In this document: positions 2,086 to 63,144 of the stretch, one piece after another
How positions within the stretch are numbered: the stretch's first letter is position 1
How the letters are laid out: each line of letters starts with the position of its first letter
Assembly: GCA_907163375.1 (NCBI GenBank)
Contig: CAJQUW010003429.1
Span: 1-64,000 of the forward strand
From: Prostheceraeus crozeri
Taxonomy: Eukaryota > Platyhelminthes > Polycladida > Euryleptidae
Direction of reading: 5' to 3'
DNA: 64,000 nt
The notes under the pieces: generated by a model
Seen by the model: only the letters and a program-made list of their open reading frames with translations
Told to the model about the DNA's origin: nothing
The model's database searches: none
Position numbers and translations under genes: made by a program

Positions 2086-2532
2086 AAGAGAGAAGTGTGT
2101 TATGTTGCGTGTGGCGCGTGAGTGTCCTTCCTTTTCATTCCATTCATCAATTCGTCTCATTGATAGAGACAGGTAGAACTCATGGTTCTCATAACGTATG
2201 CAATGGAAAGTTTTAGGCAACCTTCGAGAGTTGGCTAAATGTCACCCTGGCGCGAATGCATACTACGTTGAGACAGAAGCAATCACTTGCAAACATGACG
2301 CAGAGAGGTTTAACAAGATTGACCATTGCCGAATGTCCCTTGCGGTATACATAGCTACGGGTTTCACCGCCGCCCTTTACAGGAACGCCCGTCGAAAGGA
2401 AGTATTACACCGAACTTCATTTGCAACGTTCAAGTTGACTGATAGCAGATTCAACTTAATGATAGTATTCGCCAGTCCGAAGACTGCCCAGGGCAAACCG
2501 CGAGGAGGTTCTATCATGTCTTGCCCCATGGT
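2060..2532 (-). repeat. Left outer terminal segment (near-identical to the right outer segment)
   Basis: On the minus strand this follows the histone-like stem-loop and reaches the arm edge. It matches 37908-38400 with only scattered substitutions by eye. An open antisense frame (2198-2611, +) runs across it and also exists in the right copy. Most of the few differences change the amino acid, so I treat the frame as a by-product rather than a gene. Confidence 0.8.
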
Positions 2533-2643: not shown

Positions 2644-3735
2644 TTAGCCGGTTCGCGACCCCTTCGATGGTGATGGTTGAGGTAAGTATTTGGCCGGCAG
2701 TTTCCGCTTCCGGTGGCGCAGCTCCTTTATTTCGCCATCATGCTTTATAGAGACATGGAGACAGCGCATCTCCGCCATTGCTCCCTCGTAGCACTCAAAT
2801 GTGGCATCCAAGTCCTCACTCTCAAGGATGACGCTGTCGACGATTCTGCTCTTGATGATGGGAATGTGGAGCGTTGTTCGTCTCTCTTCTTTCTTCTGAC
2901 TCTCAGTCAGGCTAGTCTTTAATTGCTCAATTTTTAAATTTGATACCTCTTCCTGAGCTTTTAGCGATTTTATGTAAGTCGCCTGCTCTTCAACTCGTTT
3001 TTCGTGGCAAGCGCCCTTTGTCGGAAAGGTTCTAAGTTAATGACTTGGGTCTTGAGGGCCCGAATCTCGGCTACCTGACCCTTCAGGTGGAAATTGTCAT
3101 CCTTAAGGGCCGAACATTCGTTTTTGTAACGAGTGAGCTCATCTTTTAATTTCGTGAGTGCATATTCCTGGCTCACTTTTGCAATCTGCTCATCCTTATT
3201 CAGCTGTTCATCTGCTGCTTAATCCCCTTCTTTACTGGGGAAGGTGGCGATTACTTTCTTTTTCGGGGAAGACGATTTGTTGGTTTTCCTATCTCTTCCG
3301 TGTTTTTAGTGATGACGACCTCCTCAGAATCGGAGTCATCTGAGCTGTCCAAATCGCTTAGTGGGGCCTTCTCTTCTCCTGTTGATGAGGTAGTGGCCGA
3401 AGCAGCAGGTTCCAAAATTGTTGCAATAGCCTCTTGTAGTGCTGCGTCTAGATCGACTGTTTCTTCGTTGAAGAAGGGTGCGATCACTTTGCCGATATCT
3501 GATGTTATATAATTGTTAGCCTTTTTGAGCGGACATTCGGCGTGGGCGATGTAAAATTCTCATGCTCCTTGCCTTTCAAAAATTTCAGGCAATGTGTACA
3601 GCCGGAAATAACGGCTCTTTCCTCGTGGAAGTGAGGAGTATTCTTGTACTTATTAATGTGACGTTTGAATTCGCCACCCCTCTTTATTTCTCCGCAAGAA
3701 CACTTTTTAAATAAAAATTTTGAGTTGCCTCCCAT
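2644..3735 (-). pseudogene. Left arm zinc-ligand/coiled-coil protein gene, frameshifted
   Basis: The start is the ATG at 3735, 16 nt after a splice acceptor (TTCCTTTACAG, 3752). The first frame (to 3505) has the zinc-ligand block: CSCG, a His pair, then CTHC. Next comes an acidic Ser/Asp frame (3487-3251, with SDLDSSDDSDSEE and a basic KRK tail), then a coiled-coil frame (about 3200-2970). The last frame, ending at TAA 2644, has HIPI and CLH motifs. The right-arm protein (35547-36770) has the same modules in the same order, including HIPI and CLH. At least three frame changes break the left copy, so it is probably a pseudogene of about 360 codons. Undetected short introns are an alternative. 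It is not a family I can name. Confidence 0.7.
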
Positions 3736-6640: not shown

Positions 6641-6803
6641 CGCTGTGTTTATTATGGACCTTTTATTACTACTCATGTACATGCATAGTCCAATTGTGCA
6701 ATAGTCATACTAAAGACAACTCTACATGTAGCTACACTAACACTGCTAGGTATTTAACAAACATGAAATCAATCTTTCAACCGGCGCAATTTTCCAAATG
6801 AAT

Positions 6804-14060: not shown

Positions 14061-15344
14061 CAGGCTTGCCGTGGGAATGGGAATTCCCATGAGATGGGAA
14101 TCTTGCTTCAGGTCATGGGGATCCCATGGGAATTAAATGAAAATTTTGATCACCAAAATAAGATAAATTTAAATCTTATTTGAAAGTATCAACTTTTTGG
14201 AAAGGTTGTGAGAAAGCGAGAATGCAGGCTGTAGTTGCACTCATCTTACTGGATGACTAGGCGAAGCCGCTCATGAATGACGCACAGATTGAAGTGAAAA
14301 TACAACATTTATACATGTACATTGTACAGGTGTGTCTACAGTAAGCAGGCTGTCCTTGTCTGAAAAAAGCATGATTCTGTCAGGGTGACGAAACACGGGT
14401 CGGTAACCATCATCATAACAATTCTTTTCTTGGCTTATCAATTTTATAAGAAGACTAGTATCGGTATTGAATTCTCATACGATGATGAAAGTCATCCCAG
14501 TAGCCATTTATAATAGAATATAATGCTTACTAATTTAAATTATTAGTTAAAGTAGTCCTAATGAGGACTGATGGCGTTCTCCAATCCGCAAGTGTACAAA
14601 GGCAATGCTACTGTAACCATTGGATTAATCAGTTCTTAAAAGAACTTAATGTAGCTTTCTCGTGGCAACGAATTAAAATTGATTAGCTTTGGCCCAATAT
14701 CTGGTAAAAATGGAAATCTTAATACTTGTAATACTACTCATTCTTGCTGTTAATATACTAATACCATAGATTCCAAACACTGCCGCATAGACGCTCAAAA
14801 CAGACGTCTAATATATTGTACCGACTACAGATGCCGATAGTGGAAATAGAATAGGACAATGGTCACCATAGGTTAAGGAAATTAAAAATGGATATTATAA
14901 AACAACAGCAAACCGATGAATAAAAATCTGAAAAATTGGAAAAGTGGAGGTAAGATATGGAAATACAACGATGCTACTACACCGATTACAAGTGAACTAT
15001 ATCTGACAATACACAAAGTGGATAATGGTAAGAGTGGATAAGTGGAAAGTGGATAATGGAGGTAAACAATAGAACGACAATGACGCTCTACTACACCGAA
15101 AGCAATGAAACTATACACACTACACCTAAGACTACACATGGAAAATACTATTTCTTCACTTGAATTTGTTATTTCCAGTTTCTTCATCCGTCTATAGTAC
15201 TTCATGTAATTCCACATTTCTTCATTTGAATTACAATACATCGACCACTACTTCAGCTACCGATTAAGGGATATAAAACATAATACTGCAGTTCGTCACT
15301 CATCAGCAGGTACTCGTCTAGGTGTGTTTCGACCCCTAACCTGT

Positions 15345-20840: not shown

Positions 20841-21335
20841 ATGCTGTGTTCTTTCAAAGGTTGTAGTGGAAAACGTTCAATTCCTGAAGATGAAGGACGT
20901 GTGGAAATAAAAGCTACAGTAAATAAATCCTTTCTTAAGAAAAAGCCGCGAAATGTTTCATGGAGAGATGATGGCAACGCTATTTTTCATCGACCATGCT
21001 GGGAGGTGCTACATCAGCAGTCTGAGAAACGTGTGACAGTGTCTCGCAAAAGAAAGCGGTCAGAGAGTTCGGATGATCTTGAATTGAAATCCGAGGCAAT
21101 GAAGATCGTAGAGGCTGCTGAAACAGCAGAATTCCATGATTCAGTAACTTCCGTGGTTAAAGCTGGGAAAACTGTAGCAGACCTAATTCGTAACTCACGT
21201 CATTGTGTCTTTTTCACTGGTGCTGGGATAAGTACAGCCGCTGGCATTGGAGATTATCGGGGAAAAGATGGAAAGTGGACTGAGATGGATCGGGAATTTA
21301 ATGGATTATCCGGTAAGTTCACATTCGGCTCTCTC

Positions 21336-21398
<63 letters not shown>

Positions 21399-24300: not shown

Positions 24301-27300
24301 TTGGAAAAATATTGATTTGCTTTATCTGATTGTGCAAAAACGGTAAAAACTACAGGTGGAGAAGTGTGTAGAGATATTAGAAGTAATAAAAAAGACGAAA
24401 GTCCATGTTCTACTTACATTGGTCGAAGTGAACATGCTAACGACAATGATGTGACAAACATAATGCCTTCTGCTCAAATTCATTGCCACTTCGCTTTGAA
24501 CTGGCAATTATTAGAAAGCCTATTTTTATCTTAACATTGCCGACCAGAATAGAACACGGAGAAAACCTTTGTATTTTTTCTCTGATTTCTAATGGATGTG
24601 TAGACCTTACATTAGCATCGTTCTTGCCGTTTGCGCAGTCAGAGAAATTGTCTCCTATTGTCTCAAAATTGTCGCTACTTTCTGCAAAATAGCATCAAAT
24701 TACAAGATCAATTTCTTTGCGCGAAAGGCAATTTTTGAATAATTTACCTTGACGATCTGCATCCCTGCGATACTTTTCTAAACATGTTTTCTAGCCTTTA
24801 TTGGCATTCTACAGTTATAACTGTTTTTTTAGAGCGCGTAGGCCGATATAATGTTCAGCATGGCAAATTTTGAATGGATTTTTATGCTGATGAAGCCTCT
24901 TTTTTAGTCATGTTTCAAATATTAAAATTTAAATTCTTTGTCAGGTTATCATTACTGGAATCTCCAGATTGAAGACATGCTGACACAAAATTCAGAAAAT
25001 TTTTGAGTTTTCTTTTTCAATTCATTTAAAAGATTGTGCGAGTACTTGTCCCTATATTGCACAACAACCCACTTTGGAACACTATATGAGAGGCGAAAGG
25101 GATTATAGCATGATCGTCAAGACTTGAAAGACGCCATGTTGTAAACAGTTATCAACAGGAATGCCAACATAATATAATAGCAAAGGTCGACATAATTTAT
25201 GCACTACTCTAAATCGTATTTTGATATCACTTCCTGTTTCTTCATGATTGTCGGGAGTCATGCTGTGTTTATTGAAATTTCTTTCAAAGTTGTGCCGAAT
25301 TTTTATCCGCTGCCTCAAGAAATACAGCTTATTATATAATGTAATATAGCTTTGCGAATGAAAATCACAGGCTGAAGCTATGTCACTGCTGCTTTAGATC
25401 CAGTTGGCAGGAATCAAGTTTAAATCAGGTCAAAGTGTAAAAATGGACACTGTAGCCTATCTTGATCCCTAATAGACCCCACTCAATCTTTTAGCCACGC
25501 TACTGCCATTATAGCAATTTCAAAATGATTTAGGCTGCAAAATATGAAAATTCAATGATAAAAATCAAAAATAGGAATTATAGCTCACGTAATTGACTGC
25601 TTTCGTGTTTTTTTAAAACAAGGGATTATAAAAAAGCATATTCTTATCCAGGTTTCTATCACATCCTTTCCAACCTTTGCATTGGCAGCTCTTGTGATGT
25701 TTTGAACTGTGATTTTGTGATATTAAGATACTAAAGTGATATTTCCTTTACGTTTAGATAACCTGATGGACGAGGAAGACGGTGTTCCTTACGAATCTCT
25801 ACGACCAACTTTAACTCATGAAGTCATTGCGAAAATGGTGGAAGATAATCACGTCAAATTTGTCATCACTCAGAATTGTGATGATCTTCATGGACTGTCC
25901 GGTATTCCGCGCCGCAATCTGGCTGAACTCCATGGCAACTGCTTCGTAGAATGCTGTCAGAAATGTAGGAAACGTTATGCACGGACTTCTTACGTCATGG
26001 ATGATGAAGCAAGTGAATACTTCGAAATGTCTGTTAGGGAGCGATCCAGAGTCATACGAAAACCGCACTGGATTAAATGCAAACGGTGCGGATTATGTCA
26101 TCATACTGGACGTACATGTGACGACAAAGTAAGTCTTAAGTGCTCTTGCACACCACCATGATGCGCCACAAAAGGCACAGTCATAATACCAAAATAGTGC
26201 CAGTGGTTAAATTTTCTAGATGTTTAACGGCAAATATTGTTTATCTTTGCTGCAGGAATTACTTGCTTCACGTCACTTACACTGTAAATCGCTAAATCGC
26301 TGGATACGAAAATTACATACAAACATATACCAAAATCACATGCAATTTGAAACTAACATCTGATACGAGATTCTCGTATATTTACAGAGATCTGGTATGT
26401 TTTTCATACCACATCTCACTTACTTTCGCATGTGATTGGTATGTAGCGATACGAACTATTCTATCTGTGATTACCCTGAAATACGAGTTGTTGGTATGTT
26501 TTATATACGAGACCCGATGCAAATTCATCCTTTTTCGTATGCCTCTGGTATGCATTTCGTATGTGCAGCTTTAAGACAAGACACATAGCAAAAGAATATA
26601 TTACATATTACTGTCAAATAACTTTTTCGGTGATACCAGTCGTGAATATTTTTTGTTTGATAGAGTGATATTTAACTAGATTAGATTTATGGTTAATTTT
26701 ATGCTCCACGAGATTTTGTTCGTTGCTATTTATCTAGCATTAACAGGACGTTTAGTTAGCTCTACTTCATGAGCCAAGTTGATGAACATCAATTCATTCA
26801 TTCGATATCTGTCGTGAAATCATGTTGACTTATATAGCCTACCTCAAACTATTTTTGCGTTCATGAATTATAATGTGTTTTTATTTCGGATTGATAATAT
26901 GCTTAATTTCAAAATTACATAATGCATAATTTTGATGGTTGAATAGTTATTGATTATTCATGAAATGCCTTAGACTTACGTGTATCAAAATCGAATTCAG
27001 TATTGAAAGTATGACTCTTGAATGTCATTATCTCACTACTTACGGAACAGTAGTAACATTAGTGGGATCTTTGTTGACAAAAGGCCTTAAATCAACATAC
27101 TTTGGACATGATTTATGCGTTCTTTTAACATTGTGCTGGTATGGCTTTAGTATGTAAAGCATACCACATTTGAAATAACATACGAAAAGCATACAAATAT
27201 ACACCAAGAGAATACAGATATATTACAAAAAAATTTTGGTATGCATCCTTCGCATGTGATTAGTATTGAGCGATTTACAGTGTACTTGAGCAAATCTCAG

Positions 27301-30025
27301 CGATCCAAGCGAGTAAATACTTTCATTTGTATTTGACGAATCATATATCCTAAAGTATTTACCTCTATACATTTTGGAAACTTTACTTACCTATATTTGG
27401 ATTCATATACATTTTTGGTTCTATACAGCAAATTTTCTATTCCTTTATGTTGCCAGTAGGCCTGTACCGCTTCCAAATCCAAGTACTGCTGATTAAAGCT
27501 TTAAGCTCTGAAGAATAGAATTTGCATTTTGAGTGTTCATTATAATTTACATTACTTATTGCTTGTACAAAATACACGAATGTCGAAATACAAGCGAACC
27601 AATGATATCTTTCTTTCATATGAGCATCCGTATTATATGTTTCCAATTAATCAACCGTGATAGAACATTTCGTGATTGTGGTTTCAGAAGCACCTAATCT
27701 GCGGAGTGGGACCCAGAGTAGCAACAATCTAGCCCAATCCACCCAGCACCAAACTAAATTACAGCAGCCCTACATCATCCTTGTAAGGCCCGACATTATG
27801 TGACAGAGGTTGCATAGCTGCTTTTATGGGAAGGTCCCCATCGAGCTCCTTAACCCCGGTTCGGTTGCACCTGTTTCATGCTTACTTCCAACAAAAAACA
27901 ATCATGTCAGCAATTCTCCACATTTTCAGAAACGTGCTCTCCGGCGCTGACTCTGGCGTCTCAGGGACACTTTGCCATTTACAGAGGTATCTCCCCCACT
28001 GATAAGCACTGGCTCTTAAGGACCAGTAACCCAACAAGAACCAACCATGACACAAAATTATCGCTACCCCATATACAACCATCAGGAGCAATCGCTCTCG
28101 GACCTGCGTTCTCCAAGAAGGAATCCGTTGTACAATCTTTGCCAGCTGTCAATGGAATTATTCTCCACGGTCACCAGATCTATTTCCTGGAGTCACCAGA
28201 TCTTTCCCTGGACAGAGTTAACTAGCACGGCTTTAGAAACACCCGAATGTGGGGAGTGGGACACAGAGTAGCAACCATATAGTAGCAACAATATACCATT
28301 TCATTTGTGAATGTTCAGTATACAATGCTATCAGGCTAAACTTCACACCCTTCTTTATAAACATATCGAAGCAAGATTTCTATGCTATGCTGGAAACTTT
28401 AGAGATAGGTAAAGTTGTAAAATTGACTAAGTTCATACAGAATGCAAATGACATCAGAGCTGACAAATTACGTCAAGTACCAATGGCATCATGATAACTA
28501 ATCAACTTCATTAAAAAATCACACAATCCAAGATTGCGTCCAGTTCGAGTTGAAAGACAAATTGTAATCGGAGGTCCGGAACGTATCCACTAAGCGCGAA
28601 CACATTCTTTGATTCAACAATCTCATTACAGGTGAGGCATTGTGAAGCATCATTTGTGCTTTGATCATGATTTTACATTTGTACCTGTAAGTTGATTAAA
28701 TTATATTTTTGGCGTTTCGGACCTCCTACTAATTAGGACTTATTAATTAGATCGGAAGCCTATTAAGATCTAAAACAAGCTGAATTATTAATGCCGTTTA
28801 TATTAACACTCGTTTTATCATATTGATTGAAATGTTTTATATGACGCATGACTATTTGAATTATATATGAATGCACTAAAAATTGTTATGATTCTATCAT
28901 CAATCATCAACTGTAATTTGCTGACAATGTCCTCTCCTTCCAGATAAGCTAGAATCATTTCTCCATCTCACTCATAAATCTCACAAATCATTTTTCCTGT
29001 AAATATGTCATTATTGCAACTTGCCATCTCTGTATAATACATGCCTCATTAACCTCATTGTATGTATTTTTCATGTATTGAAAAAATATACGTTCTGATA
29101 TTCTAATCTAGGCCAATCCACCCACCATCAAGCTAACAGCAACTTGTACCACCCTAGGAGACCCTGATATGTTACAAAGGATCAGGTATGCAGGGATACT
29201 GTATTACACGGGTAATATATATCTGCTCTCATGGTAAGGTCCCCATCAAGTACCTCATCTCGAGTTTGCGATTATTTGCTTGGTTTTTACTTTTTATCAC
29301 GATATTTCATTATTGCAATTTCGATCTTTAAAGAGGATCATTGATTTCTGATTTGTACATATTTGATGCGGTAACTATGCAATTGCATAGGCATGATTAG
29401 GTTTGTACAATTGGCTAAAATTCGTACTCATTATCGTCTTTCAGAAAATTTGGGGTGGGCTCACGCGCACCGCACCTAGAAGAAATTTAATAGTGATTCC
29501 TGGAGATATTGGGAGAGAACCACTGAGATAAAACAAAATCTAATAACATGCGCTTTGAAGCCTTCTGCAGGATCGTGACATTTATTAGAGATATCTTTAG
29601 AATTTTATTGATAGATCAAATGATCCAATGCAGTTACAAACATTTTTGCATCTATTTTGCAGGTTTGCAGTGGTTGGCTCACGGATACAATCATAAATTT
29701 CAGAGATCATTTGGAGGAAGATATAATCACGACAGCATTTACAGAAGCTTCACTTGCTGATCTTATCATTTGCTTCGGTTCCACTATAACTGTCACACCT
29801 GCATCTGATATTGTAAAAGACAGTGCTCGACGGAACAACTGTAGGCTTGTTATTTGCAATAGACAAATTACTGAATTCGATAAGGATGCAGATATTCGCA
29901 TTTTTGGTGACTGTGATCCACTCACAAAGGAGATAGCGAGGCAACTATTGGGAGACGAACAGTTGGCAGAATGGCTCTCTGACAGAACTAATCGAATCAA
30001 AGTATATGATGAACTAAGAAAATAA
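20841..30025 (+). CDS. Sirtuin (NAD-dependent deacylase), SIRT6/7-like, three coding exons, 401 aa
   Basis: The exons are 20841-21312, 25758-26128 and 29663-30025, with GT-AG splice sites and matching phases (phase 1, then phase 0). Residues 127-147 hold the NAD-binding GAGISTAAGIGDYRG...KWT motif. TQNCDDLH is at 195-202 and catalytic His is at about 216 in LAELHGN. Four-Cys zinc ligands follow (CQKC, then CGLC and the TGRTC...VCSG region), then WLTDTIINF and a CFGSTITVTPAS motif. The TGRxC and LxDTIxxF phrases resemble SIRT6/7-type class IV sirtuins, which act on chromatin; that subtype is inferred. Oddities: GDYRG replaces the usual PDFRG, NFRDHL replaces the usual xFGExL, and the N-terminus adds about 110 residues with a C-x4-C...H-x2-C pattern and a basic KRKRSESSDD stretch (likely nuclear). 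AATAAA overlaps the stop. It is probably a host gene. Confidence 0.93.
21329..21396. repeat. (CT)n microsatellite in sirtuin intron 1
   Basis: A long CT run begins about 16 bp after the exon 1 donor (21313). It creates open frames that read through the donor but carry no coding meaning. Confidence 0.97.
21886..23764. mobile_element. Non-autonomous piggyBac-type element (1879 bp) in sirtuin intron 1
   Basis: The left end is CCCATTTAAGGCCGCC, preceded by TTTA. The right end, as complement, is CCCATTTAGCGCCAG, followed by TTAA (23765-23768). CCC ends with a TTAA-type site are diagnostic of piggyBac; the left TTAA has one mismatch. Palindromes GTAACGATTTCGTTAC (about 22019) and TGTAACGAAAACGTTACA (about 23731), plus an AACGTTACGG at 23400, sit near the ends, like the GTGTCAC palindromes of the piggyBac element at 60065. 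No transposase is present. Confidence 0.75.
26280..27282. mobile_element. TA-flanked DNA transposon remnant (1003 bp) in sirtuin intron 2
   Basis: The ends share the inverted repeat CACTGTAAATCGCT, with TA on both sides (26278-26279, 27283-27284), fitting a Tc1/mariner-type or similar TA-targeting MITE. GTATG/CATAC pentamers are strikingly frequent over the first and last 250 bp. No transposase frame is present. Confidence 0.7.
27690..29270 (+). mobile_element. LINE 3' remnants with diverged direct repeats in intron 2
   Basis: A segment at about 28273-28494 reads HFICECSVYNAIRLNF and onward, the Cys/His pattern seen at the C-terminus of non-LTR retrotransposon ORF2 proteins. It then stops. 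Phrases from 27690-27860 (GGAGTGGGACMCAGAGTAGC; CCAATCCACCCAGC; GGAAGGTCCCCATCGAG) recur in diverged form at about 28240 and at 29110-29260. These look like several decayed copies of one LINE tail rather than LTRs. Confidence 0.4.
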
Positions 30026-32357: not shown

Positions 32358-32741
32358 TCAGTCTGGAAGCATGGTTTAGCTACTCCTGTGCAATTTGGAT
32401 ATATGCCGTATTCATCGACATGTGCTATCCATCTGCATGATCGCATCACCAAGAAACTCGAATCTAAAGAAGCTATTGGTGTCACAGTTCTTTCCCTAGA
32501 CTTCAGTCGGGCCTTCGACACAGTTTCTCACAGATTATTATTTGAAAAATTGTTCACGCATAGTTTGCCACTTGAGTTCATAGAATGGCTCTCTTCGTAT
32601 CTAAGTAATCGCTTTCAATCCGTGAGTTTGGGTAACTCCATCAGTAATCCCGTTCATGTAAGGAGTGGAGTGCCACAAAGGTCCATTATTGGTTCTCTCC
32701 TCTTACCTTTTTGCACTGCAAATCTAAGTGACCCAAAATTA
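32358..32741 (+). pseudogene. Non-LTR retrotransposon reverse transcriptase fragment
   Basis: One open frame of about 125 codons shows the standard non-LTR RT order: QFGYMPYSST, then LSLDFSRAFDTVSHRLL (catalytic Asp region), WLSSYLSNRFQSV, and SGVPQRSIIGSLL in place of SGVPQGSxLGPLL. It ends before the YxDD motif. Both 5' and 3' parts of the LINE are missing. The homology stops within about 10-40 bp of the inner edge of the right arm, so the arm junction probably cuts it. Confidence 0.88.
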
Positions 32742-32804
32742 ACGGACTAGTAGTAGTAAGTAAAACTCCACTTATGGACCGCGCAAGATGGCCGCCGTCG
32801 CTGA

Positions 32805-32960: not shown

Positions 32961-33029
32961 GTATAGCGCGCGGTGATGTGGTGTCTAGGTTGGCGTGGTG
33001 TGCCGGCCAGGTTGGGAGGGTGGACTGTC

Positions 33030-34560
33030 GTAGCTCACCTGAAAAAATCCTAGGTGTCAGAGTGACTTTGTATGGGTAAAATTTTGAAAATTTTCCAAAG
33101 TGTGGAATTTCGACCTGGGACCGTCACCAAAACATTTTTCATCAAATTTCACTGACCCCCCCCCGACAGCAATCTTCTAACTTTGGTTCTAGTGAACGGA
33201 TTTTGTCTTACAGCTACTCGTTTGAAAGAGGAGAAAAAACTGCTCGACGCCATTTTTGCCGCGAGTCAATCGGACTAGCCGTTCAAAAGTTAGAGCTGTT
33301 ACAAGATTTTAGGTCGGAGCTCGCTCACCTGAAAAAATCCTAAGTGTCAGAGTGGCTTTGTATGGGTAAAATTTTGAAAATTTTCCAAAGTGTGGAATTT
33401 CGACCTGGGACCTTCACCAAAACATTTTTCATCAAATTTCACTGACCTCCCCCCCCCTCTGGACAGCTAGCTTCGATCTTGGCTTCTAGTGGACGGATTT
33501 TGTCGTGCAATAGCTCGTTTGAAAGCTAAGAATGAGACAAATTCAGTGAAAGAAACGGCTTGTTCATATCTGTCTTCGTTCAAAAGTTAGAGCTGTTACA
33601 AGATTTTAGGTCGGAGCTCACCTGAAAAAATTCTAAGTGTCAGAGTGGCTTTGTATGGGTAAAATTTTGAAAATTTTCCAAAGTGTGGAATTTCGACCTG
33701 GGACCTTCACCAAAACATTTTTCATCAAATTTCACTGACCTCCCCCCCCCTCGGGAGAGCTCGCTTCGATCTTGGCTTCTAGTGGACGGATTTTGTCTTA
33801 CAGCTACTCGTTTGAAAGCTAAGAGTGAGACAAATTCAGTGAAAGAAACGGCTTGTTCATATCTGTCTTCGTTCAAAAGTTAGAGCTGTTACAAGATTTT
33901 AGGTCGGAGCTCACCTGAAAAAATTCTAAGTGTCAGAGTGGCTTTGTATGGGTAAAATTTTGAAAATTTTCCAAAGTGTGGAATTTCGACCTGGGACCTT
34001 CACCAAAACATTTTTCATCAAATTTCACTGACCTCCCCCCCTCTGGACAGCTCGCTTCGATCTTGGCTTCTAGTGGACGGATTTTGTCTTACAGCTACTC
34101 GTTTGAAAGAGGAGAAAAAACTGCTCGACGCCATTTTTGCCGCGAGTCAATCGGACCAGCCGTTCAAAAGTTAGAGTTGTTACAAGATTTTAGGTCGGAG
34201 CTCACCTGAAAAAATTCTAAGTGTCAGAGTGGCTTTGTATGGGTAAAATTTTGAAAATTTTCCAAAGTGCGGAATTTCGACCTGGGACCTTCACCAAAAC
34301 ATTTTTCATCAAATTTCACTGACCTCCCCCCCCTCTGGACAGCTAGCTTCGATCTTGGCTTCTAGTGGACGGATTTTGTCTTACAGCTACTCGTTTGAAA
34401 GAGGAGAAAAAACTGCTCGACGCCATTTTTGCCGCGAGTCAATCGGACCAGCCGTTCAAAAGTTAGAGCTGTTACAAGATTTTAGGTCGGAGCTCGCTCA
34501 CCTGAAAAATCCTAAGTGTCAGAGTGGCTTTGTATGGGTAAAATTTTGAAAATTTTCCAA
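33030..34560. repeat. Tandem array of about 290-bp units with C-runs
   Basis: About five units, each containing TAAGTGTCAGAGTGGCTTTG, GGGTAAAATTTTGAAAATTT, GTGGAATTTCGACCTGGGAC, AAACATTTTTCATCAAATTT, a C7-C9 run with TCTGGACAGCT, and CTAGTGGACGGATTTTGTC. They sit at 290-296 bp spacing (C-runs near 33449, 33742, 34034, 34326). Units alternate between a GAGGAGAAAAAACTGCTCGA version and a GAGACAAATTCAGTGAAAGA version; the second matches the left-arm array in reverse. Open frames through it follow the repeat. Confidence 0.92.
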
Positions 34561-34566
34561 AGTGTG

Positions 34567-34684
34567 GAATTTCGACCTGGGACCTTTACCAAAACATTTT
34601 TCATCAAATTTCTCTGAACGAGGGGGGGGGAGGTCCGTGAAATTTGATGAAAAATGTTTTGGTAAAGGTCCCAGGTCGAAATTC
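34567..34684. repeat. Perfect 45-bp inverted repeat (hairpin) at which the array flips orientation
   Basis: 34567-34611 and the complement of 34640-34684 are identical, separated by 28 nt containing a G-run. Weaker inverted similarity continues outward for about 80 bp more (CACTTAGGAATTTTTTCA against the array unit). The tandem array thus reverses direction here, some 240 bp before the TATA box of the right-arm gene. Such a structure could extrude as a cruciform or fold as a strong RNA hairpin. Confidence 0.92.
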
Positions 34685-35546: not shown

Positions 35547-36770
35547 ATGGTCAACAATGACAAAAATAAGAAGTTCCACATTAAAATGTGTGTATGCGGC
35601 CGAATTAACCGCCGAGACGGTCTCAAGGACCACATCAAGAAGGCAGGGGCCGACCACATGGTTATCCTGAGTAGGGTTGCCTGTGTGAAGTGCAGGGTGC
35701 TGTTGGTTGTTGGGCAGGAGGCCGAGTTTTATTTGAGGCATGGTGAGTGCACAGGAGGGTTGGTGACCGATTTGAGATTTGTGGAGTTGATGAATGCTGA
35801 GAAGGAGCGAATGTTGGGGAAAGAGGCCAAGAATGTTGTTGAGAATGCTAGTGGGAATGTTGTTGAGAATGCTAGTGGGAATGTTGTTCAGAATGCTAGT
35901 GGGAATGCTGTGGAGAATGAGGTAGAGAATGCTGTGGCCGGTTTGAAGGCTGACAAGTGGCGGAAGAGATTGTTTGAGAGTGATGAGGATGAAGTGGATT
36001 TGGATAGGGAGCGAGTGAGGAAGCGTGTGAGGAAGTTGAGCTCTTCGTCGTCGGAGGTATCCGATATTGTCATTACCGACCCCCCGCAGAGCTCATCTTC
36101 CCCAATAGTGAAGGGTGGTGGGGTACGGAAGCAGTCGGCGCGGTGGGATGAGGACATGGAAGAGAAGCATGTGTCGCAGCAAGCGGCACATGCTTTGTTG
36201 GTTGATCGGTACGAAAGTTTGAAGAAGGTGAATGAGAGAACGTTGAGTGAGTTGAGTGAGCTGAAAATGAAGGAGGTGAAATGTAAGGAGGTGGCAGATG
36301 AGAATATCCGTATGAGGCGTGTTGTGAAAGAGTTGAAGGAGAATGTGCGAGTGTTGGAAGACAAGAATGATGAGCGAGAGAAGAGGAAGAGTGCTGCAGA
36401 GAGGAGAATGGGAGAGGCAGAGTCGAAGTATGAGGAGTTGATGAAGGAGATGAGTGTATTGAGAGCGAGGAATGCTGAGTTGGAGAGGAGTGTGAGTAGG
36501 CAGGGTGATGAGAGAGAGTCGTTTTCGAAGTTGGAGCGCATGAGGAATGAGTGGAGTCGTGTGAATGAGGACAGAATGTTTGAGTTCCACATCCCTATTC
36601 GGGATAACCATCTGGGCGGTCAAGTCCTCGTCAACCAAAGCCTAGACGAGAGTATAATCTGCTATAATGGTCATCCGACTAAGAAGTGCTTACATGCCAC
36701 ACTCAAAATGCGCGGCCATTTACAAAAATTTTCAGTCAGGAAGCCCGCGAGACTGCCTAAGGATGACTAA
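35547..36770 (+). CDS. Zinc-ligand/coiled-coil protein of the right arm, 407 aa, unknown family
   Basis: I place the start at 35547 (GCAGCCATGG context), 21 nt after a splice acceptor, because the left-arm copy begins at the equivalent ATG. Residues 15-49 hold CVCG, His29, His37 and CVKC, a probable zinc-binding unit shared with the left copy. About residues 105-140 hold three to four NVVENASG-type repeats. A Ser/Asp-rich stretch with KRVRKLSSSSSEVSD follows. About residues 210-350 are a long coiled coil rich in Lys/Glu, and a C-terminal block has FHIPI and CLH motifs conserved in the left copy. The coding strand is strongly purine-rich. The protein is likely nuclear and self-associating; its function is unknown. 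A 60-bp intron follows the stop by 4 nt, then the histone-like stem-loop. Confidence 0.8.
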   Translation: MVNNDKNKKFHIKMCVCGRINRRDGLKDHIKKAGADHMVILSRVACVKCRVLLVVGQEAEFYLRHGECTGGLVTDLRFVELMNAEKERMLGKEAKNVVENASGNVVENASGNVVQNASGNAVENEVENAVAGLKADKWRKRLFESDEDEVDLDRERVRKRVRKLSSSSSEVSDIVITDPPQSSSSPIVKGGGVRKQSARWDEDMEEKHVSQQAAHALLVDRYESLKKVNERTLSELSELKMKEVKCKEVADENIRMRRVVKELKENVRVLEDKNDEREKRKSAAERRMGEAESKYEELMKEMSVLRARNAELERSVSRQGDERESFSKLERMRNEWSRVNEDRMFEFHIPIRDNHLGGQVLVNQSLDESIICYNGHPTKKCLHATLKMRGHLQKFSVRKPARLPKDD

Positions 36771-36774
36771 CTTG

Positions 36775-36834
36775 GTAAGTGAAAAGCAAATAAGATAGTA
36801 TATCCTTTTCTAATACATATCATTTTCATTGCAG
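36775..36834 (+). other. 3'-UTR intron of the right coiled-coil gene (60 bp)
   Basis: Donor CTTG|GTAAGTGA and acceptor TTTTCATTGCAG|ATCTTT. It matches in position, but not in sequence, the 62-bp intron in the left arm. An intron after the stop codon upstream of a histone-type stem-loop would be unusual, since replication-dependent histone genes normally lack introns. Confidence 0.7.
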
Positions 36835-36886
36835 ATCTTTGCCTGCCTTCACCACCCCATCAATTCACTCCCGAGAACGAACCATC

Positions 36887-36902
36887 GGCTCTCTTAAGGG
36901 CC
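36887..36902 (+). terminator. Histone-type 3' stem-loop of the coiled-coil gene
   Basis: GGCTCTCTTAAGGGCC, preceded by GAACCATC and followed by ACTTAGGGG and CAAGACATGA. After splicing it lies about 56 nt past the stop. It is part of a 138-bp module (about 36874-37012) repeated after the next two genes and in the left arm. Confidence 0.65.
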
Positions 36903-37027
36903 ACTTAGGGGCAAGACATGATAGAGCCTCCACGCGGTTTGCCCTGGGCAGTCTTCGGACTGGCGAATACTATCATTAAGTTGAATCTGCTATCAGTCAA
37001 CTTGAACGTTGCGTCGCGTTAGAGGGG

Positions 37028-37061
37028 TATATAAACCACTGCCTCTCATTTCATTTCATTT
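37028..37061 (+). promoter_or_regulatory. Core promoter of the 88-aa gene
   Basis: TATATAAACC starts at 37028. A TCATTTCATTTCATTTC run follows, with one TCATT at position 29. The predicted 5' leader is only about 10 nt, before the ATG at 37067. Confidence 0.68.
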
Positions 37062-37066
37062 CAATC

Positions 37067-37333
37067 ATGCAGACGCCGAACAGTCAAGTCAGCTCTCCTC
37101 GCGGACCGCAGTTAAGGCCGCGAAATTTATTTGAGGAGTTTGTCAGGCTAGAGGAGCAAGACAGAGTTTATAATAATCTTGCTCGGATTGGCAATCCGAT
37201 GACAGCAACTGCTGTCAATCCAACGGAATGGCGCTACATTCCACTTTTTAGCCATGTACCAGTTAGTGTGGAAGTCGACAGTGCTACCAAAGAGAGAGTC
37301 AAAGACTCTCTCAGCAGAATTGGTAGGGTGTAA
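37067..37333 (+). CDS. Small unknown protein, 88 aa
   Basis: The ATG is 39 nt after the TATA box, the stop is at 37331-37333, and the histone-like stem-loop starts 30 nt later. This compact gene layout, with a short leader and short 3' end, resembles intronless histone genes, but the protein is not a histone. It begins with a Pro/Ser/Arg-rich basic part (SPRGPQLRPRNLF), then a charged helix-like stretch (EEFVRLEEQDRVYNNLARIG), then an uncharged Trp/Tyr segment. I recognise no family. Promoter and 3' signal on both sides argue it is real. No copy is found in the left arm. Confidence 0.68.
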   Translation: MQTPNSQVSSPRGPQLRPRNLFEEFVRLEEQDRVYNNLARIGNPMTATAVNPTEWRYIPLFSHVPVSVEVDSATKERVKDSLSRIGRV

Positions 37334-37362
37334 GATGACGTTACTCCCGAGAACGAACCACC

Positions 37363-37378
37363 GGCTCTCTTAAGGGCC
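37363..37378 (+). terminator. Histone-type 3' stem-loop of the 88-aa gene
   Basis: GGCTCTCTTAAGGGCC, 30 nt after the stop codon, followed by ACCATGGGG and CAAGATTTGA. It is module copy 2 (about 37345-37488). After AACGTT this copy jumps directly to GCAGTCGATTGCTATCCCTG, a phrase otherwise found at the arm terminus (38386), so it looks like a terminal segment with an internal deletion of about 370 bp. Confidence 0.65.
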
Positions 37379-37551
37379 ACCATGGGGCAAGATTTGATAG
37401 AACCTCCTCGCGGTTTGCCCTGGGCAGTCTTCGGACTGGCGAATACTATCATTAAGTTGAATCTGCTATCAGTCAACTTGAACGTTATGCAGTCGATTGC
37501 TATCCCTGAAGCATTCTGATTCGCTGTTGAGCAATTCATTGTTGAAAACCC

Positions 37552-37585
37552 TATATAAGCCAGAAGATTGTAGCGCTTCTCATTC
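37552..37585 (+). promoter_or_regulatory. Core promoter of the 85-aa gene
   Basis: TATATAAGCC starts at 37552 and TCATTCAATTTC starts at position 29. The leader to the ATG at 37600 is about 18 nt. Confidence 0.7.
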
Positions 37586-37599
37586 AATTTCAAGTCACG

Positions 37600-37857
37600 A
37601 TGGAAGCAACGTCTCCTGCCAACAGCATTCTCGTCTTCATCGATGAAGACAACGCCATTCCCGAGTTCGTCATCCTCGACGAGTGGGATGAAGAGGATGA
37701 TAAGAAGGGGAAGATCAAGAGGATCGTTTGGACGGATGGGGTGTGGACTCCGAATACCACTCGCATCCGAAAGGTGCCAGATGCACCAGCACGAGCTAGG
37801 CGGTATAGGGTCTATGACAACCTAACCGTCATACCCATTGACTATTCCAGCCAATAG
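37600..37857 (+). CDS. Small acidic unknown protein, 85 aa
   Basis: The ATG (ACGATGG context) lies 48 nt after the TATA box and the stop is at 37855-37857. The stem-loop follows 34 nt after the stop. The product has a hydrophobic/acidic first half (FIDEDNAIPEFVILDEWDEE), a basic patch (DDKKGKIKRIVW), and an Arg-rich second half (PARARRYRVYDNL). It has no recognised domain. It lies between module copies 2 and 3, in line with the two preceding genes and in the same direction. Shared regulatory parts suggest co-expression with them. The left arm has no counterpart. Confidence 0.7.
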   Translation: MEATSPANSILVFIDEDNAIPEFVILDEWDEEDDKKGKIKRIVWTDGVWTPNTTRIRKVPDAPARARRYRVYDNLTVIPIDYSSQ

Positions 37858-37891
37858 TCAACTTAGATTCACACCCCGAGAACGAACCATC

Positions 37892-37907
37892 GGCTCTCTT
37901 AAGGGCC
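37892..37907 (+). terminator. Histone-type 3' stem-loop of the 85-aa gene
   Basis: GGCTCTCTTAAGGGCC, followed by ACCATGGGG and then CAAGACATGA 9-10 nt downstream. This copy and the left-arm copy are the best matches to the histone signal. It begins the outer terminal segment shared by both arms. Confidence 0.67.
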
Positions 37908-38455
37908 ACCATGGGGCAAGACATGATAGAACCTCCACGCGGTTTGCCCTGGGCAGTCTTCGGACTGGCGAATACTATCATTAAGTTGAATCTGCTATCA
38001 GTCAACTTGAACGTTGCAAATGAAGTTCGGTGTAATACTTCCTTTCGACGGGCGTTCCTGTAAAGGGCGGCGGTGAAACCCGTAGCTATGTATACCGCAA
38101 GGGACATTCGGCAATGGTCAATCTTGTTAAACCTCTCTGCGTCATGTTTGCAAGTGATTGCCTCTGTCTCAACGTAGTATACATTCGCGTCAGGGCGACA
38201 TTTAGCCAACTGTCGAAGGTTGCCTAAAACTTTCCATTGCATACGTTATGAGAACCATGAGTTCTACCTGTCTCTATCAATGAGACGAATTGATGAATGG
38301 GATGAAATGGGAGGACACTCACGCGCCACACGCAAGATAACACACTTCTCTCTTCCGTAGTCTAACAAGCTCTTTACACATGGATCGCAGTCGATTGCTA
38401 TCCCTGTATCATGTAAGCTATCTAAATTTTTTTAACACTATTTCATCTACCATTT
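37908..38455 (+). repeat. Right outer terminal segment
   Basis: About 97% identical by eye to the left outer segment, in inverted orientation, as far as AACACTATTTCATCTACCATT (about 38432-38452). The satellite begins immediately outside. It contains no TATA box or supported gene. The antisense frame 38242-37829 parallels the left one but shows mostly amino-acid-changing differences. Confidence 0.82.
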
Positions 38456-41400
38456 CAAGAATTTACAAGTTAGAAATTAAGTTTCAATGGTGTATACGTT
38501 AGAAATAAAGTTTTATCTGTTTGTATATCAAAATAAAGTTTGAAGAGTTTACAAGTTAGAAATAAAGTTTCAATAGTGTATGCGTTAGAAATAAAGTTTT
38601 ACCTGTTTATATATCAAAATAAAGTTTCAAGAGTTTACAAGTTAGAAATAAAGTTTCAATAGTGTATATGTTAGAAATAAAGGTGTAACTGTTTGTAAAA
38701 ATAAGATCGCAAGATTTACTAGTTTAAAAGTTAGACTAAGTGTAAATTAAAAATAAAATTATAACTGTTCACGAGTTAAAGCGTTGATGCAACGATGAAC
38801 AATTAATAAGCTAAAAAGTTTTAGATTCACTTTAACATTACCATATGTTTACAGATAGAAATGTATCGCAGCAAAGCTACTTCATGAGTTAGTTTGCCAG
38901 GAGTGTATCATCTCAAACTTTTACTCCGACTGTGGAACATTGATTTCCATGATGAATTTAAAATAGTCAGAATCGATGACGAACAAGATTTACTAGTTTA
39001 CAAGTTGGACAAAGCGTTCTACTATTTGTAAATGAAAGATATCATTTCAACAGTTTACCAGTTAGAAATAAAGTTTCAACAGTCTACAAGTTAAGCATAA
39101 AGTTTCAACCGTTTACAAGTTAAAAATGAAGTTTCAATAGTATGTATGTTAAGAATAAAGTTTCATCTGTTTATATGTTAGAAATAAAAATGAAGGTTCA
39201 CCAGTTTACAAGTTAAGAATAAAGTTTTATCTGCTTGTATGTCAGAAATGAAATAAAGTTTCACCAGTTTAAGAGTTAAAAATAAAGTTTCAATATTTTG
39301 CAAGTTAAAACTAATGTTTCAATAGTGCATATGTTAAGAATAAAGTTTTATCTGTTTGTATGCTAGAAATAGAATGAAGTTTCACCAGTTGGCAAGTTAA
39401 GAATAAAGTTTTATCTGTTTGTATGATAGAAATAAAACAAAGTTTCAACCGTTTAAAAGTGAAAAATAAAGTTTCAATAGTTTACAAATTAAGAATAAAG
39501 TTTCAATAGTGTGTATGTAAGAAATATAGTTCTATCTGTTTATATGTTAGAAATAGAATGAAGATTCACCAGTTTACAAGTTAAGAAAAAAGTTCTATCT
39601 GTTTATATGTTAGAAATAAAATGAAGTTTCATCAGTTTACAAGTTAAGAATAAAGTTTCAATAGTTTACAAGTTAAGAATAAAGTTTCAATATTGTATAT
39701 GTTAAGAATAAAGTTTTATCTGTTTATATGTTAGAAATAGAATGAAGTTTCACCAGTTTACATGTTACGAATAAAGTTCTATCTGTTTAAGTTTACAAGT
39801 TAAGAATAAACTTCTATCTGTTTGTATGTTAGAAATAAAACAAAGTTTCAACCGTTTACAAGTTAAAAATAAAGTTTCAATAGTTTACAAGTTAAGAATA
39901 AAGTTTCAATAGTGTGCATGTTCAGAATAAAGTTCTATCTGTTTATATGTTAGAAATAGAATGAAGTTTCACCAGTTTACAAGTTAAGAATAAAGTTATA
40001 TCTGTTTATATGTTAGAAATAAAATGAAGTTTCATCAGTTTACAAGTTAAGAATAAAGTTCTAAATGTTTGTATGTTAGAAATAAAACAAAGTTTCAACC
40101 GTTAACAAGCTAAAAATAAAGTTTCAATAGTTTGCAAGTTAAAACTAATGTTTCACTAGTCGTCAAGTTAAGAATAAAGTTTTATCTGTTTGTATGATAG
40201 AAATAAAACAAAGTTTCATCAGTTTACAAGTTAAAAATAAAGTTTCAATAGTTTACAAGTTAAGAATAAAGTTTCAATAGTGTGTATGTTCAGAATAAAG
40301 TTCTATCTGTTCATATGTTAGAAATAGAATGAAGTTTCACCAGTTTACAAGTTAAGAATAAAGTTTTATCTGTTTGTATGATAGAAATAAAACAAAGTTT
40401 CAACCTTTTACAAGTTAAAAATAAAGTTTCAATAGTTTACAAGTTAAGAATAAAGTTTCAATAGTGTGTATGTTAGAAATATAGTTCTATCTGTTTATAT
40501 GTTAGAAATAAAATGAAGTTTCACTAGTTTACAAGTTAAGAAAAAAGTTCTATCTGTTTCTATGATAGAAATAAAATGAAGTTTCATCAGTTTACAAGTT
40601 AAGAATAAAGTTTCAATAGTTTACAAGTTAAGAATAAAGTTTCAATAGTGTATATGCTAAGAATAAAGTTCTATCTGTTTATATGTTAGAAATAGAATGA
40701 AGTTTTACCAGTTTACAAGTTACGAATAAAGTTCTATCTGTTTAAGTTTACAAGTTAAGAATAAAGTTCTATCTGTTTGTATGTTAGAAATAAAACAAAG
40801 TTTCAACCGTTTACAAGTTAAAAATAAAGTTTCAATAGTTTACAAGTTAAGAATAAAGTTTCAATAGTGTGCATGTTCAGAATAAAGTTCTATCTGTTTA
40901 TATGTTAGAAATAGAATGAAGTTTCACCAGTTTACAAGTTAAGAATAAAGTTCTATCTGTTTATATGTTAGAAATAAAATGAAGTTTCATCAGTTTACAA
41001 GTTAAGAGTAAAGTTCTATCTGTTTGTATGTTAGAAATAAAACAAAGTTTCAACCGTTAACAAGTTAAAAATAAAGTTTTAATAGTTTGCAAGTTAAAAC
41101 TAATGTTTCACTAGTTGGCAAGTTAAGAATAAAGTTTTATCTGTTTGTATGATAGAAATAAAACAAAGTTTCAACCGTTTAAAAGTTAAAAATAAAGTTT
41201 CAATAGTTTACAAGTTAGGAATAAAGTTTCAATAGTGTTCATGTTCAGAATAAAATTCTATCTGTTTATATGTTTGAAATAGAATGAAGTTTTACCAGTT
41301 TACAAGTTAAGAATAAAGTTTTATCTGTTTGTATGTTAGAAATAAAACAAAGTTTCAACCGTTAAAAAGTAAAAAATAAAGTTTCAATAGCTTGCAAGTT

Positions 41401-63140: not shown

Positions 63141-63144
63141 TTAA

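Follow-up and report, generated by a model that had tools for sequence, protein, structure and literature searches.

A histone-type stem-loop followed by a predicted HDV-like ribozyme at the 3′ ends of non-histone genes in a repeat element

The analyzed window, a 64-kb stretch of DNA, contains four units that, judged by their sequence, appear to be genes of an animal-like repeat element, three on its right arm and one on its left arm (Table 1). TATATAA was found shortly before the ATG of gene 2 (at 37028, 39 nt) and gene 3 (at 37552, 48 nt), and farther upstream of gene 1 (at 34920, ~0.6 kb, with a presumed 5′UTR intron) and the left-arm gene (at 4467-4461, ~0.7 kb). The left-arm gene is split into three frames, indicating a broken copy or assembly errors, and is probably a divergent homologue of gene 1 with similarity near the N-terminus only. 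The gene 1 protein had no Pfam match above the cutoff, and its best hit among PDB sequences had an E-value of 0.84. AlphaFold2 gave a mean pLDDT of 43.6 for gene 3 and 38.9 for residues 1-86 of gene 1, too low for use. No histone Pfam match was obtained for the three right-arm proteins or four pieces of the left gene, in agreement with the initial annotation, which had stated that the encoded proteins are not histones. Among the 22 window proteins scanned, a single reverse transcriptase match was obtained (32388-32750, upstream of the right arm), and sense ORFs of ≥100 aa beyond the modules were limited to piggyBac-type ones at 61-62 kb. Hammerhead retrozyme-like repeats were present elsewhere in the window.

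Table 1. Positions of the predicted genes and of the elements of their 3′ modules (R1 to R3, right arm; L, left arm)
Feature	Position	Strand	Remarks
Gene 1 CDS	35547..36770	+	407 aa; Cys/His-rich N-terminus then coiled-coil-like, by eye
GT-AG intron, gene 1 3′UTR	36775..36834	+	after the stop codon and ahead of the stem-loop; sequence-based prediction
R1 histone-type stem-loop	36887..36902	+	6 bp, loop CUUA; gene 1 3′UTR; RF00032 17.5 bits
R1 5-nt linker ACTTA	36903..36907	+	predicted cleavage after 36907
R1 HDV-like ribozyme	36908..36976	+	RF02682 24.0 bits; putative catalytic C 36964
R1 helix P1	36908-36914/36939-36945	+	
R1 helix P2	36918-36924/36970-36976	+	
R1 helix P3	36926-36928/36936-36938	+	
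R1 helix P4	36949-36962	+	
R1 conserved 3′ hairpin	36978..37003	+	AAGTTGA/TCAACTT; second CTATCA in loop
Gene 2 CDS	37067..37333	+	88 aa, no family
R2 histone-type stem-loop	37363..37378	+	gene 2 3′UTR; RF00032 18.2 bits
R2 5-nt linker ACCAT	37379..37383	+	predicted cleavage after 37383
R2 HDV-like ribozyme	37384..37452	+	RF02682 27.2, RF00094 28.1 bits; putative catalytic C 37440
R2 conserved 3′ hairpin	37454..37479	+	
Gene 3 CDS	37600..37857	+	85 aa, no family
R3 histone-type stem-loop	37892..37907	+	gene 3 3′UTR; RF00032 18.1 bits
R3 5-nt linker ACCAT	37908..37912	+	predicted cleavage after 37912
R3 HDV-like ribozyme	37913..37981	+	RF02682 26.8 bits; putative catalytic C 37969
R3 conserved 3′ hairpin	37983..38008	+	
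Left-arm gene	2644..3735	-	open pieces in three frames
L histone-type stem-loop	2533..2548	-	left-arm gene 3′UTR; RF00032 18.1 bits
L 5-nt linker ACCAT	2528..2532	-	predicted cleavage between 2528 and 2527
L HDV-like ribozyme	2459..2527	-	RF02682 26.5, RF00094 27.5 bits; putative catalytic C 2471
L conserved 3′ hairpin	2432..2457	-	

The 16-mer GGCTCTCTTAAGGGCC occurred as four exact copies in the whole window, three on the (+) and one on the (-) strand, and no fifth copy was found there even when up to three mismatches were allowed. Only 0.13 matches were expected per shuffled window, and four were reached in none of 100 shuffles. The pattern GGYYYTNNNNARRRCC matched the same four places only (0.11 expected). 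All four copies fit the 16-nt histone consensus GGYYYU-NNNN-ARRRCC exactly and stand in sense orientation 29-56 nt past a stop codon in the mature mRNA, which bears out both the consensus assignment of the initial annotation and its placing of the 16-mer near all four gene ends. The individual stop-to-stem distances were 56 nt for gene 1 (predicted intron 36775-36834 removed), 29 nt for gene 2, 34 nt for gene 3, and, by hand count, 33 nt for the left gene (predicted intron 2631-2570 removed). Rfam model RF00032 (Histone3) scored 17.5-18.2 bits, under its gathering threshold of 34. The loop CTTA is present in four C. elegans H2B genes, and histone mRNAs of that species end 3-6 nt past the hairpin, after A or U, according to the available text of PMC1924863. 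Neither AATAAA nor ATTAAA occurred from 36700 to 38452, where about two would be expected, which also weakly favors a histone-type 3′ end. Sequence and position together support the view that these non-histone genes carry a histone-type stem-loop at their 3′ end.

A complete HDV-like double pseudoknot starts 5 nt past each of the four hairpins, with P1, P2, P3, L3 (UCC[A/U]CGC), P4, and J4/2 (CGAA). The nested helices (~7-bp P1, P2, 3-bp P3, and P4) were in canonical order in 4/4 copies, and all carried J4/2 GCGAATA and L3 TCC[A/T]CGC, that is, the putative catalytic C and the L3 U and G. The CNRA context of J4/2 and the exact L3 positions used in our ribozyme descriptor are what we take to be those of the class. 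HDV-like ribozymes contain a U-G reverse wobble in L3, as described in PMC3774820. For P1.1, CC in L3 could pair with GGG in J1.1/4, where the descriptor demanded only a G. Standard pairs filled 139 of the 140 pair cells, hairpins included, against at most 47.9% in slid registers; the outermost P2 pair of R2 is U-U. The Rfam HDV models scored under gathering (RF02682, 24.0-27.2 vs 44 bits; RF00094, 22.8-28.1 vs 50 bits), a score that is a curation threshold of narrow models and not a biochemical definition of the HDV-like class. The lowest E-value among them belonged to the HDV-F-prausnitzii ribozyme (RF02682), which has a 7-nt L3 and a 5-bp P4 alike; that ribozyme is bacterial and the match sub-gathering, indicating structural likeness only. 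Hairpin, full ribozyme fold, 5-nt spacing, sense orientation, and post-stop position were all read directly from the DNA.

The linker between hairpin and ribozyme is constant in length and variable in sequence (ACCAT/ACTTA). The initial annotation had noted ACC(A) after three of the four copies, and this was so, R1 having ACTTA instead. Its downstream motif about 10 nt further on was found as well, since CAAGACATGA/CAAGATTTGA starts 9 nt past the stem. However, CAAGACATGA is part of the ribozyme strand P1/J1-2/P2, and the interpretation of the motif as a U7-binding element found no support as the main route; the HDV-like fold in the downstream part of the module had been overlooked. Major cleavage of histone pre-mRNA takes place 5 nt past the stem-loop, as described in PMC6303110, and the predicted self-cleavage falls at the same distance.

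In an Rfam scan of the whole window (E ≤ 10), Histone3 and HDV matches were confined to these four modules, with E-values of 0.6-7 (whole window, all families). The double-pseudoknot descriptor gave four matches in the window, and each was preceded, at 2-8 nt, by a histone stem. On 400 shuffled windows it gave a mean of 0.01 matches (one match in each of 4 shuffles) and none jointly with the hairpin, and on 182 viral-contig loci (1.64 Mb) one match and none jointly with a histone stem; the descriptor was written with the Rfam alignment known, and these statistics are a guide only. A looser first version, which had returned the four copies plus four poor extra matches, was tightened before the shuffles. 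A chance match was rejected, as the 16-mer, the consensus pattern, and the descriptor were all rare in shuffles. IMG/VR contained no match to the stem-loop 16-mer or the ribozyme core and no confirmed relative of the proteins of genes 1, 2, and 3. Two loose hairpin-plus-core patterns returned 62 and at least 120 stretches from IMG/VR, and none of the 182 loci examined passed the strict joint descriptor. The ribozyme core had no match in prokaryote genomes. A covariance model built from the four copies scored them at 181-185 bits and gave two further weak matches (9.9 and 4.6 bits).

The four modules form one homologous family, with 139 shared columns and pairwise identities of 94-99%, and for this reason they are counted by sequence as one independent occurrence rather than four. 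Because the copies are near-identical, covariation was absent, with no two-sided (compensatory) change among them. Of nine variable columns, seven were unpaired, one changed A-U to G-U in P3, and one broke the outermost P2 pair in R2. The left cassette was 96-99% identical to the right-arm cassettes, whereas the gene 1-like proteins of both arms had diverged (50% over 26 aa).

From its sequence, the ~139-nt module may be a self-contained mRNA 3′-end cassette. The transcript of each gene would continue through the stem-loop into the ribozyme, which would fold and cleave at its own 5′ side, leaving an mRNA end 5 nt past the stem-loop, the site where U7 snRNP-guided cleavage ends a true histone mRNA. 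This end would carry a 2′,3′-cyclic phosphate and be made without U7, CPSF73, or a poly(A) signal, and the hairpin would act as the tail, with bound SLBP providing stability, export, and translation. Transcription, self-cleavage, SLBP binding, and a benefit to the element are what we infer. We regard it as fairly probable that the HDV-like ribozyme takes the place of U7/CPSF73 here and leaves a poly(A)-less 3′ end of histone type to which SLBP can bind. About evenly balanced, in our judgment, is the wider proposal that these are the first natural mRNAs with ribozyme-made functional 3′ ends, in which the messages of a mobile or repeat element would pass for histone mRNAs, attract SLBP, and depend on neither the poly(A) nor the U7 machinery. 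Counted against the ribozyme reading were the sub-gathering Rfam scores with their E-values of 0.6-7, the lack of covariation, the unremarkable folding energies, the loss of the histone hairpin from three minimum-energy folds, the sense frame through the module, and the split frame of the left gene.

About the same place of cutting would be expected from classical histone-type processing. In that case the hairpin and CAAGACATGA would be bound by SLBP and U7 snRNP, the cut would be made by CPSF73, and expression would be coupled to S phase, the ribozyme likeness being incidental or secondary. Hairpin and spacing fit, and CAAGA resembles the sea-urchin downstream element named in the initial annotation. 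However, the supposed element falls within P1, J1/2, and P2 of a full ribozyme fold expected ~0.01 times per window by chance, and conservation spans the entire ribozyme and a further hairpin, beyond the needs of U7. We consider this route unlikely, and U7-only processing was rejected as the simplest reading, the supposed element being inside the ribozyme fold. Of the proposed histone-type 3′ ends, the stem-loop at non-histone gene ends found support in sequence and position, but U7-dependent processing as the main route did not. Since ribozyme cleavage is independent of U7, FLASH, and CPSF73, the suggested S-phase coupling of expression is weakened; SLBP supply could still tie translation to the cell cycle. 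Ribozymes acting 3′-ward, to free the 5′ end of downstream RNA with the hairpin as mere flank, would resemble those of R2, RTE, and L1Tc, and many known animal HDV-like ribozymes are described at retrotransposon 5′ ends (PMC3774820, PMC8256844). R1 and R2 each precede another ORF, and short sense ORFs follow R3 (37 and 40 aa) and L (37 aa; 75 aa ~0.8 kb on). But the protein scan revealed no reverse transcriptase downstream of the copies, on which ground a retrotransposon 5′-end ribozyme was rejected. Past the copies, sense ORFs of ≥100 aa are absent up to 61 kb, and TATATAA sits between R1/R2 and the following ORF. Such action seems quite unlikely to us, as it would not account for the histone-consensus hairpin, its spacing of exactly 5 nt, or the position 29-56 nt past four stop codons.

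The module might also be coding or inert. It could hold a short peptide ORF (MGQDMIEPPRGLPWAVFGLANTIIKLNLLSVNLN...) whose start, in the linker, has a strong initiation context, or an ORF on the antisense strand, or it could be a copied repeat that has no RNA function. In R2, R3, and L a sense frame with GCCACCATGG at its ATG runs through the module uninterrupted, synonymous third positions account for 4 of 8 variable sites, the antisense frame is open in the same three copies (in R3 and L it belongs to an ORF of 137 aa), and the 94-99% identical copies may be recent duplicates. However, both frames are interrupted by a stop in R1, the third-position excess was not significant (P 0.26), 4 of 6 differences between L and R3 alter the antisense protein, and neither peptide belongs to a Pfam family. 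Two RNA motifs at functional spacing, sense in all four copies and 29-56 nt past a stop codon, would not be expected in coding or inert DNA, and we judge this account very unlikely. Coding as the source of conservation was rejected on the R1 stops, a rejection not complete for R2, R3, and L. Least probable of all is that the tandem ribozymes R1-R2-R3 cut read-through RNA into monomers of 476 and 529 nt, to be closed into retrozyme-like circular RNAs by a ligase such as RtcB. Three same-sense tandem ribozymes, cut ends that would suit RtcB, the hammerhead retrozyme-like repeats in the window, and the animal retrozyme circles described in PMC7229834 agree with it, but the left arm has just one copy, the would-be monomers contain promoter-like TATATAA sites, and the hairpin is left without a role.

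Among the closest known systems is the engineered betaHis-delta of human cells, in which, according to the available text of PMC4456446, a histone stem-loop followed by a delta ribozyme gives a poly(A)-less stem-loop end. There the stem-loop restored the unspliced RNA lowered by the ribozyme alone, and the pre-mRNA was still poorly spliced. The introns predicted just before the hairpin in gene 1 and the left gene count against our reading, given this poor splicing. Unlike betaHis-delta, which is man-made on a beta-globin gene, the present arrangement is natural and found at four repeat-element gene-like units. It shares with replication-dependent histone mRNAs the stem-loop consensus, a short 3′UTR, a predicted end 5 nt past the stem, and no nearby poly(A) signal (36700 to 38452). 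Unlike those mRNAs, which depend on SLBP, U7 snRNP, and CPSF73, its proteins are not recognizable histones, a ribozyme occupies the U7-element position, and the end would be a 2′,3′-cyclic phosphate. Similar to the ribozymes of R2, RTE, and L1Tc are the nested double pseudoknot, the predicted cleavage 5′ of P1, and the putative catalytic C in J4/2; those lie at the 5′ end of retrotransposon RNA, whereas here the ribozymes are at gene 3′ ends and the useful product would be upstream of the cut. In the literature on histone stem-loops with ribozymes or transposable elements and on ribozyme-made 3′ ends, no natural case was found; the parts are known, and the natural combination of stem-loop and HDV-like ribozyme is new as far as the literature was searched. 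Non-histone genes of a repeat element seem to gain a histone-type end via predicted RNA self-cleavage. If true, this would add an mRNA 3′-end route beside cleavage/polyadenylation and U7-guided cleavage, a new 3′-end role for HDV-like ribozymes, and a selfish element that has captured the histone mRNA pathway.

The folding energies of the modules were unremarkable (z -0.6 to -1.5). The ribozyme fold summed to 1.4-3.4 kcal/mol under the free minimum with the pseudoknot penalty not yet added, and the lowest pair probabilities were 0.57-0.81 for the histone hairpin and 0.49-0.69 for P1. For R2, R3, and L the minimum-energy fold had another pairing in place of the histone hairpin, whereas all four centroid folds contained the hairpin. 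Since P3′/P1′ is paired in these three minimum-energy folds with ACC and the 3′ side of the stem, SLBP on the stem could be a switch that frees the ribozyme.

Four exact copies of GGCTCTCTTAAGGGCC were found in the window (0.13 expected by chance), and this number was reached in none of 100 shuffles. When up to three mismatches were allowed, no further copy appeared elsewhere in the window, and matches to the consensus GGYYYTNNNNARRRCC in a window-wide scan were restricted to the same four stem-loop sites. The initial annotation had placed this 16-mer after stop codons and read it as a histone-like 3′ end; the placement was confirmed, and the reading held at the level of sequence. In the mature mRNA, the stem would follow the stop codon by 56, 29, and 34 nt in genes 1, 2, and 3 of the right arm, respectively, and by 33 nt in the left-arm gene (hand count on the sequence). 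The ORFs of genes 1, 2, and 3 comprised 407, 88, and 85 aa, and ORFs of equal length arose in 0, 20, and 68 of 2000 shuffled intervals, respectively; genes 2 and 3 are thus plausible, though unproven. No Pfam match above the curated cutoff was obtained for the proteins of genes 1–3 or for any of the left gene's four pieces.

The common unit exceeded the 16-mer, spanning ~139–142 nt, with its start ~16 nt ahead of the hairpin and its end at AACTTGAACGT. These modules (R1, R2, and R3 after genes 1, 2, and 3; L after the left gene) all lay in sense orientation shortly after the stop codon, with pairwise identities of 94.2%–98.6% over 139 columns. Rfam, run with a permissive threshold, returned in all four modules a Histone3 match followed directly downstream by HDV ribozyme matches (RF02682, 24.0–27.2 bits; RF00094, 22.8–28.1 bits), and in a separate whole-window scan (E up to 10), HDV and Histone3 matches were confined to the modules. 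All scores were below gathering (RF02682, 44; RF00094, 50; Histone3, 34 bits) with whole-window E-values of 0.6 to 7, and Rfam alone therefore makes a weak case. A covariance model of the module also gave a weak match elsewhere in the window (9.9 bits, E 0.25), probably by chance.

Coordinates of the modules and of other features in the window
Feature	Position	Strand	Remark
Stem-loop GGCTCTCTTAAGGGCC, R1, R2, R3	36887; 37363; 37892	+	exact
Stem-loop GGCTCTCTTAAGGGCC, L	2533-2548	-	exact
Hairpin 3′ of ribozyme, R1, R2, R3	36978-37003; 37454-37479; 37983-38008	+	invariant in all four modules
Hairpin 3′ of ribozyme, L	2432-2457	-	invariant in all four modules
Predicted GT-AG intron, gene 1 3′UTR	36775-36834	+	sequence only
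Predicted 62-nt intron, left gene 3′UTR	2631-2570	-	sequence only
50-aa sense frame from GCCACCATGG in R3 linker	37911-38063	+	ORF reading
50-aa sense frame from GCCACCATGG in L linker	2377-2529	-	ORF reading
Match to module covariance model	14522-14583	-	weak
Outer stretch common to both arms	1977-2563 vs 37877-38457
Tandem repeats, ~326 bp	4723-6183		upstream of left-arm gene 1-like gene
Tandem repeats, ~293 bp	33027-34617		upstream of right-arm gene 1
Sirtuin-6-like gene	20841-30025	+	at least three pieces, between arms
Giant array, ~29-nt units	38453-60062; 63140-64000		downstream of gene 3
piggyBac-type transposase (PF13843)	61113-62693	+	two ORFs, inside array
70-aa ORF	1431-1643	+	outer left arm
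GCAGTCGATTGCTATCCCTG	37489-37508; 38387-38406	+	after R2 module and near outer arm end
GCAGTCGATTGCTATCCCTG	1825-1844; 2034-2053	-	near outer arm end
Hammerhead matches RF02275	11240-11305; 11542-11607	-	302 nt apart

Right after the predicted cleavage site, each module carries in order the P1 strand GGGGCAA (then GAC or GAT), the P2 strand ATGATAG (TTGATAG in R2; then A), the P3 strand ACC or GCC, L3 TCC[A/T]CGC, P3′ GGT, P1′ TTGCCCT, J1.1/4 GGG, P4 CAGTC-TTCG-GACTG, J4/2 GCGAATA (containing CGAA), and P2′ CTATCAT, the element order of a complete HDV-like double pseudoknot as predicted from the sequence. The predicted fold has a G.U wobble at the P1 base, which is typical of HDV-like ribozymes. 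In the four-row alignment, 139 of the 140 cells in 35 pairs (hairpin, P1–P4, and 3′ hairpin) were standard pairs, compared with 26%–48% when partners were slid by 1–3 columns. Nine of 139 columns varied, seven of them unpaired; the paired ones comprised a replacement of A-U by G-U in P3 and loss of the outermost P2 pair in R2, and no covariation was seen among the four aligned modules. Pseudoknot-free centroids contained the hairpin, P1, P4, and 3′ hairpin in all modules, and folding stability, likewise pseudoknot-free, was unexceptional (z −0.6 to −1.5). The 3′ strand of the hairpin instead paired with P3′/P1′ in the minimum-energy folds of three modules (R2, R3, and L). When the hairpin, P1, P3, and P4 were imposed as constraints and a P2 duplex was added, the energy sum (pseudoknot penalty excluded) was −41.0 to −42.8 kcal/mol versus free minima of −37.9 to −40.1, values compatible with the ribozyme fold that fall short of proof. 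The loop of the 3′ hairpin carries a second CTATCA, which could compete for the P2 strand.

Could the module be a coding sequence, in sense or antisense? We consider this very improbable. In R2, R3, and L, GCCACCATGG can be read across the linker and P1 and offers a strong initiation context; a sense frame runs open through these three modules, and four of the eight variable sites were third positions with synonymous change (P 0.26). R1, however, carries TAG where the ATG of that frame would be, and no Pfam family matched the 50-aa frame. An antisense frame is likewise open in R2, R3, and L, but it is closed in R1, and four of the six differences between L and R3 alter its protein. As for chance, a looser ribozyme descriptor gave four extra, poor matches. 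The tightened version, composed after the Rfam alignment had been seen, specified a 7-bp P1 from G, a 3-bp P3, L3 TCnnnGn, G in J1.1/4, P4 of ≥4 bp, CnRA, and P2 of ≥5 bp, and matched exactly the four module sites, each with a histone stem 2–8 nt upstream. Over 400 dinucleotide shuffles, the average was 0.01 matches (four shuffles with one match), and 182 viral-contig loci (1.64 Mb), chosen for a match to a loose hairpin pattern, yielded one match; none in either set adjoined a hairpin. The four modules are homologous and therefore count as one event, yet even so, a hairpin and a ribozyme at the exact functional spacing are hard to ascribe to luck.

The predicted ribozyme cut lies directly before GGGG, 5 nt past the stem, after a linker (ACCAU or ACUUA) that varies in sequence and is constant in length. 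Published work places histone cleavage mainly 5 nt and less often 7 nt after the stem-loop (PMC6303110), and C. elegans histone mRNA ends 3–6 nt past the hairpin, after A or U (PMC1924863); the loop CTTA of four C. elegans H2B genes is shared with the window's stem-loops (PMC1924863). TATATAA occurs 39 nt upstream of the gene 2 ATG and 48 nt upstream of that of gene 3, in each case between a module and the next gene; its copies ~0.6 kb upstream of gene 1 and ~0.7 kb upstream of the left gene say less, the motif occurring eight times per strand in the first 39 kb. Neither AATAAA nor ATTAAA was present in 36700-38452, which is weak evidence with about two expected.

The cassette is rather likely to form a self-processing histone-type 3′ end, in which the ribozyme would replace U7/CPSF73 in making the end and the stem-loop would replace poly(A); the U7 reading proposed initially gives way to that of an HDV-like ribozyme. 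We infer from what is established on ribozymes and histone mRNAs that the mRNAs would end in a 2′,3′-cyclic phosphate, which, unless removed, would resist 3′ trimming and uridylation, the usual route of histone mRNA decay after S phase. Such mRNAs could be processed outside S phase, and their translation would depend on SLBP, which the host, a eukaryote and probably an animal, presumably has. A bolder idea is that SLBP on the stem blocks the inhibitory pairing of its 3′ strand with P3′/P1′ and thereby licenses cleavage. The engineered betaHis-delta has the same part order; in human cells, a stem-loop placed ahead of the ribozyme restored the level of unspliced RNA, although splicing remained poor, which is in tension with the apparent terminal 3′UTR intron of the window's genes (PMC4456446). 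Natural HDV-like ribozymes are described at retrotransposon 5′ ends and various other loci (PMC8256844, PMC3774820). No natural stem-loop/ribozyme 3′ end was found in the literature searched, mostly without subscription papers, which does not show absence from print; each component is of a known kind.

The left and right arms are mutually inverted. Their common outer stretch (587 nt) is 97% identical, and the inner tandem repeats, possibly promoter or enhancer repeats, are partly shared, with 78%–94% identity in blastn pieces. The gene 1-like proteins have diverged (50% identity over 26 aligned aa), and the inner arm ends read alike, with AGTAGTAA(G)TAAAA near 6670 and 32752. A hAT transposase also lies between the arms, which may represent separate insertions of a single element family or the two termini of one giant element. 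Leaving aside the piggyBac-type transposase inserted in the outer array, the scanned arm proteins included no recognizable transposase or reverse transcriptase. In 38453-60062 of the giant array, AATAAA occurs 504 times on the + strand and never on the − strand; the array could be a polyadenylation or termination barrier or simply a satellite. The stop codon of the 70-aa ORF runs into AATAAA, and no Histone3/HDV match follows it, in contrast to the other four genes. Three copies of GCAGTCGATTGCTATCCCTG are exact and one has a mismatch, with 0 expected. The hammerhead matches, each scoring 33.5 bits with a whole-window E-value of 1.3e-4, were below gathering and outscored the module HDV matches; with a tRNA-promoter-like stretch recognized by eye between them, the pair looks like an animal retrozyme/SINE-type repeat.
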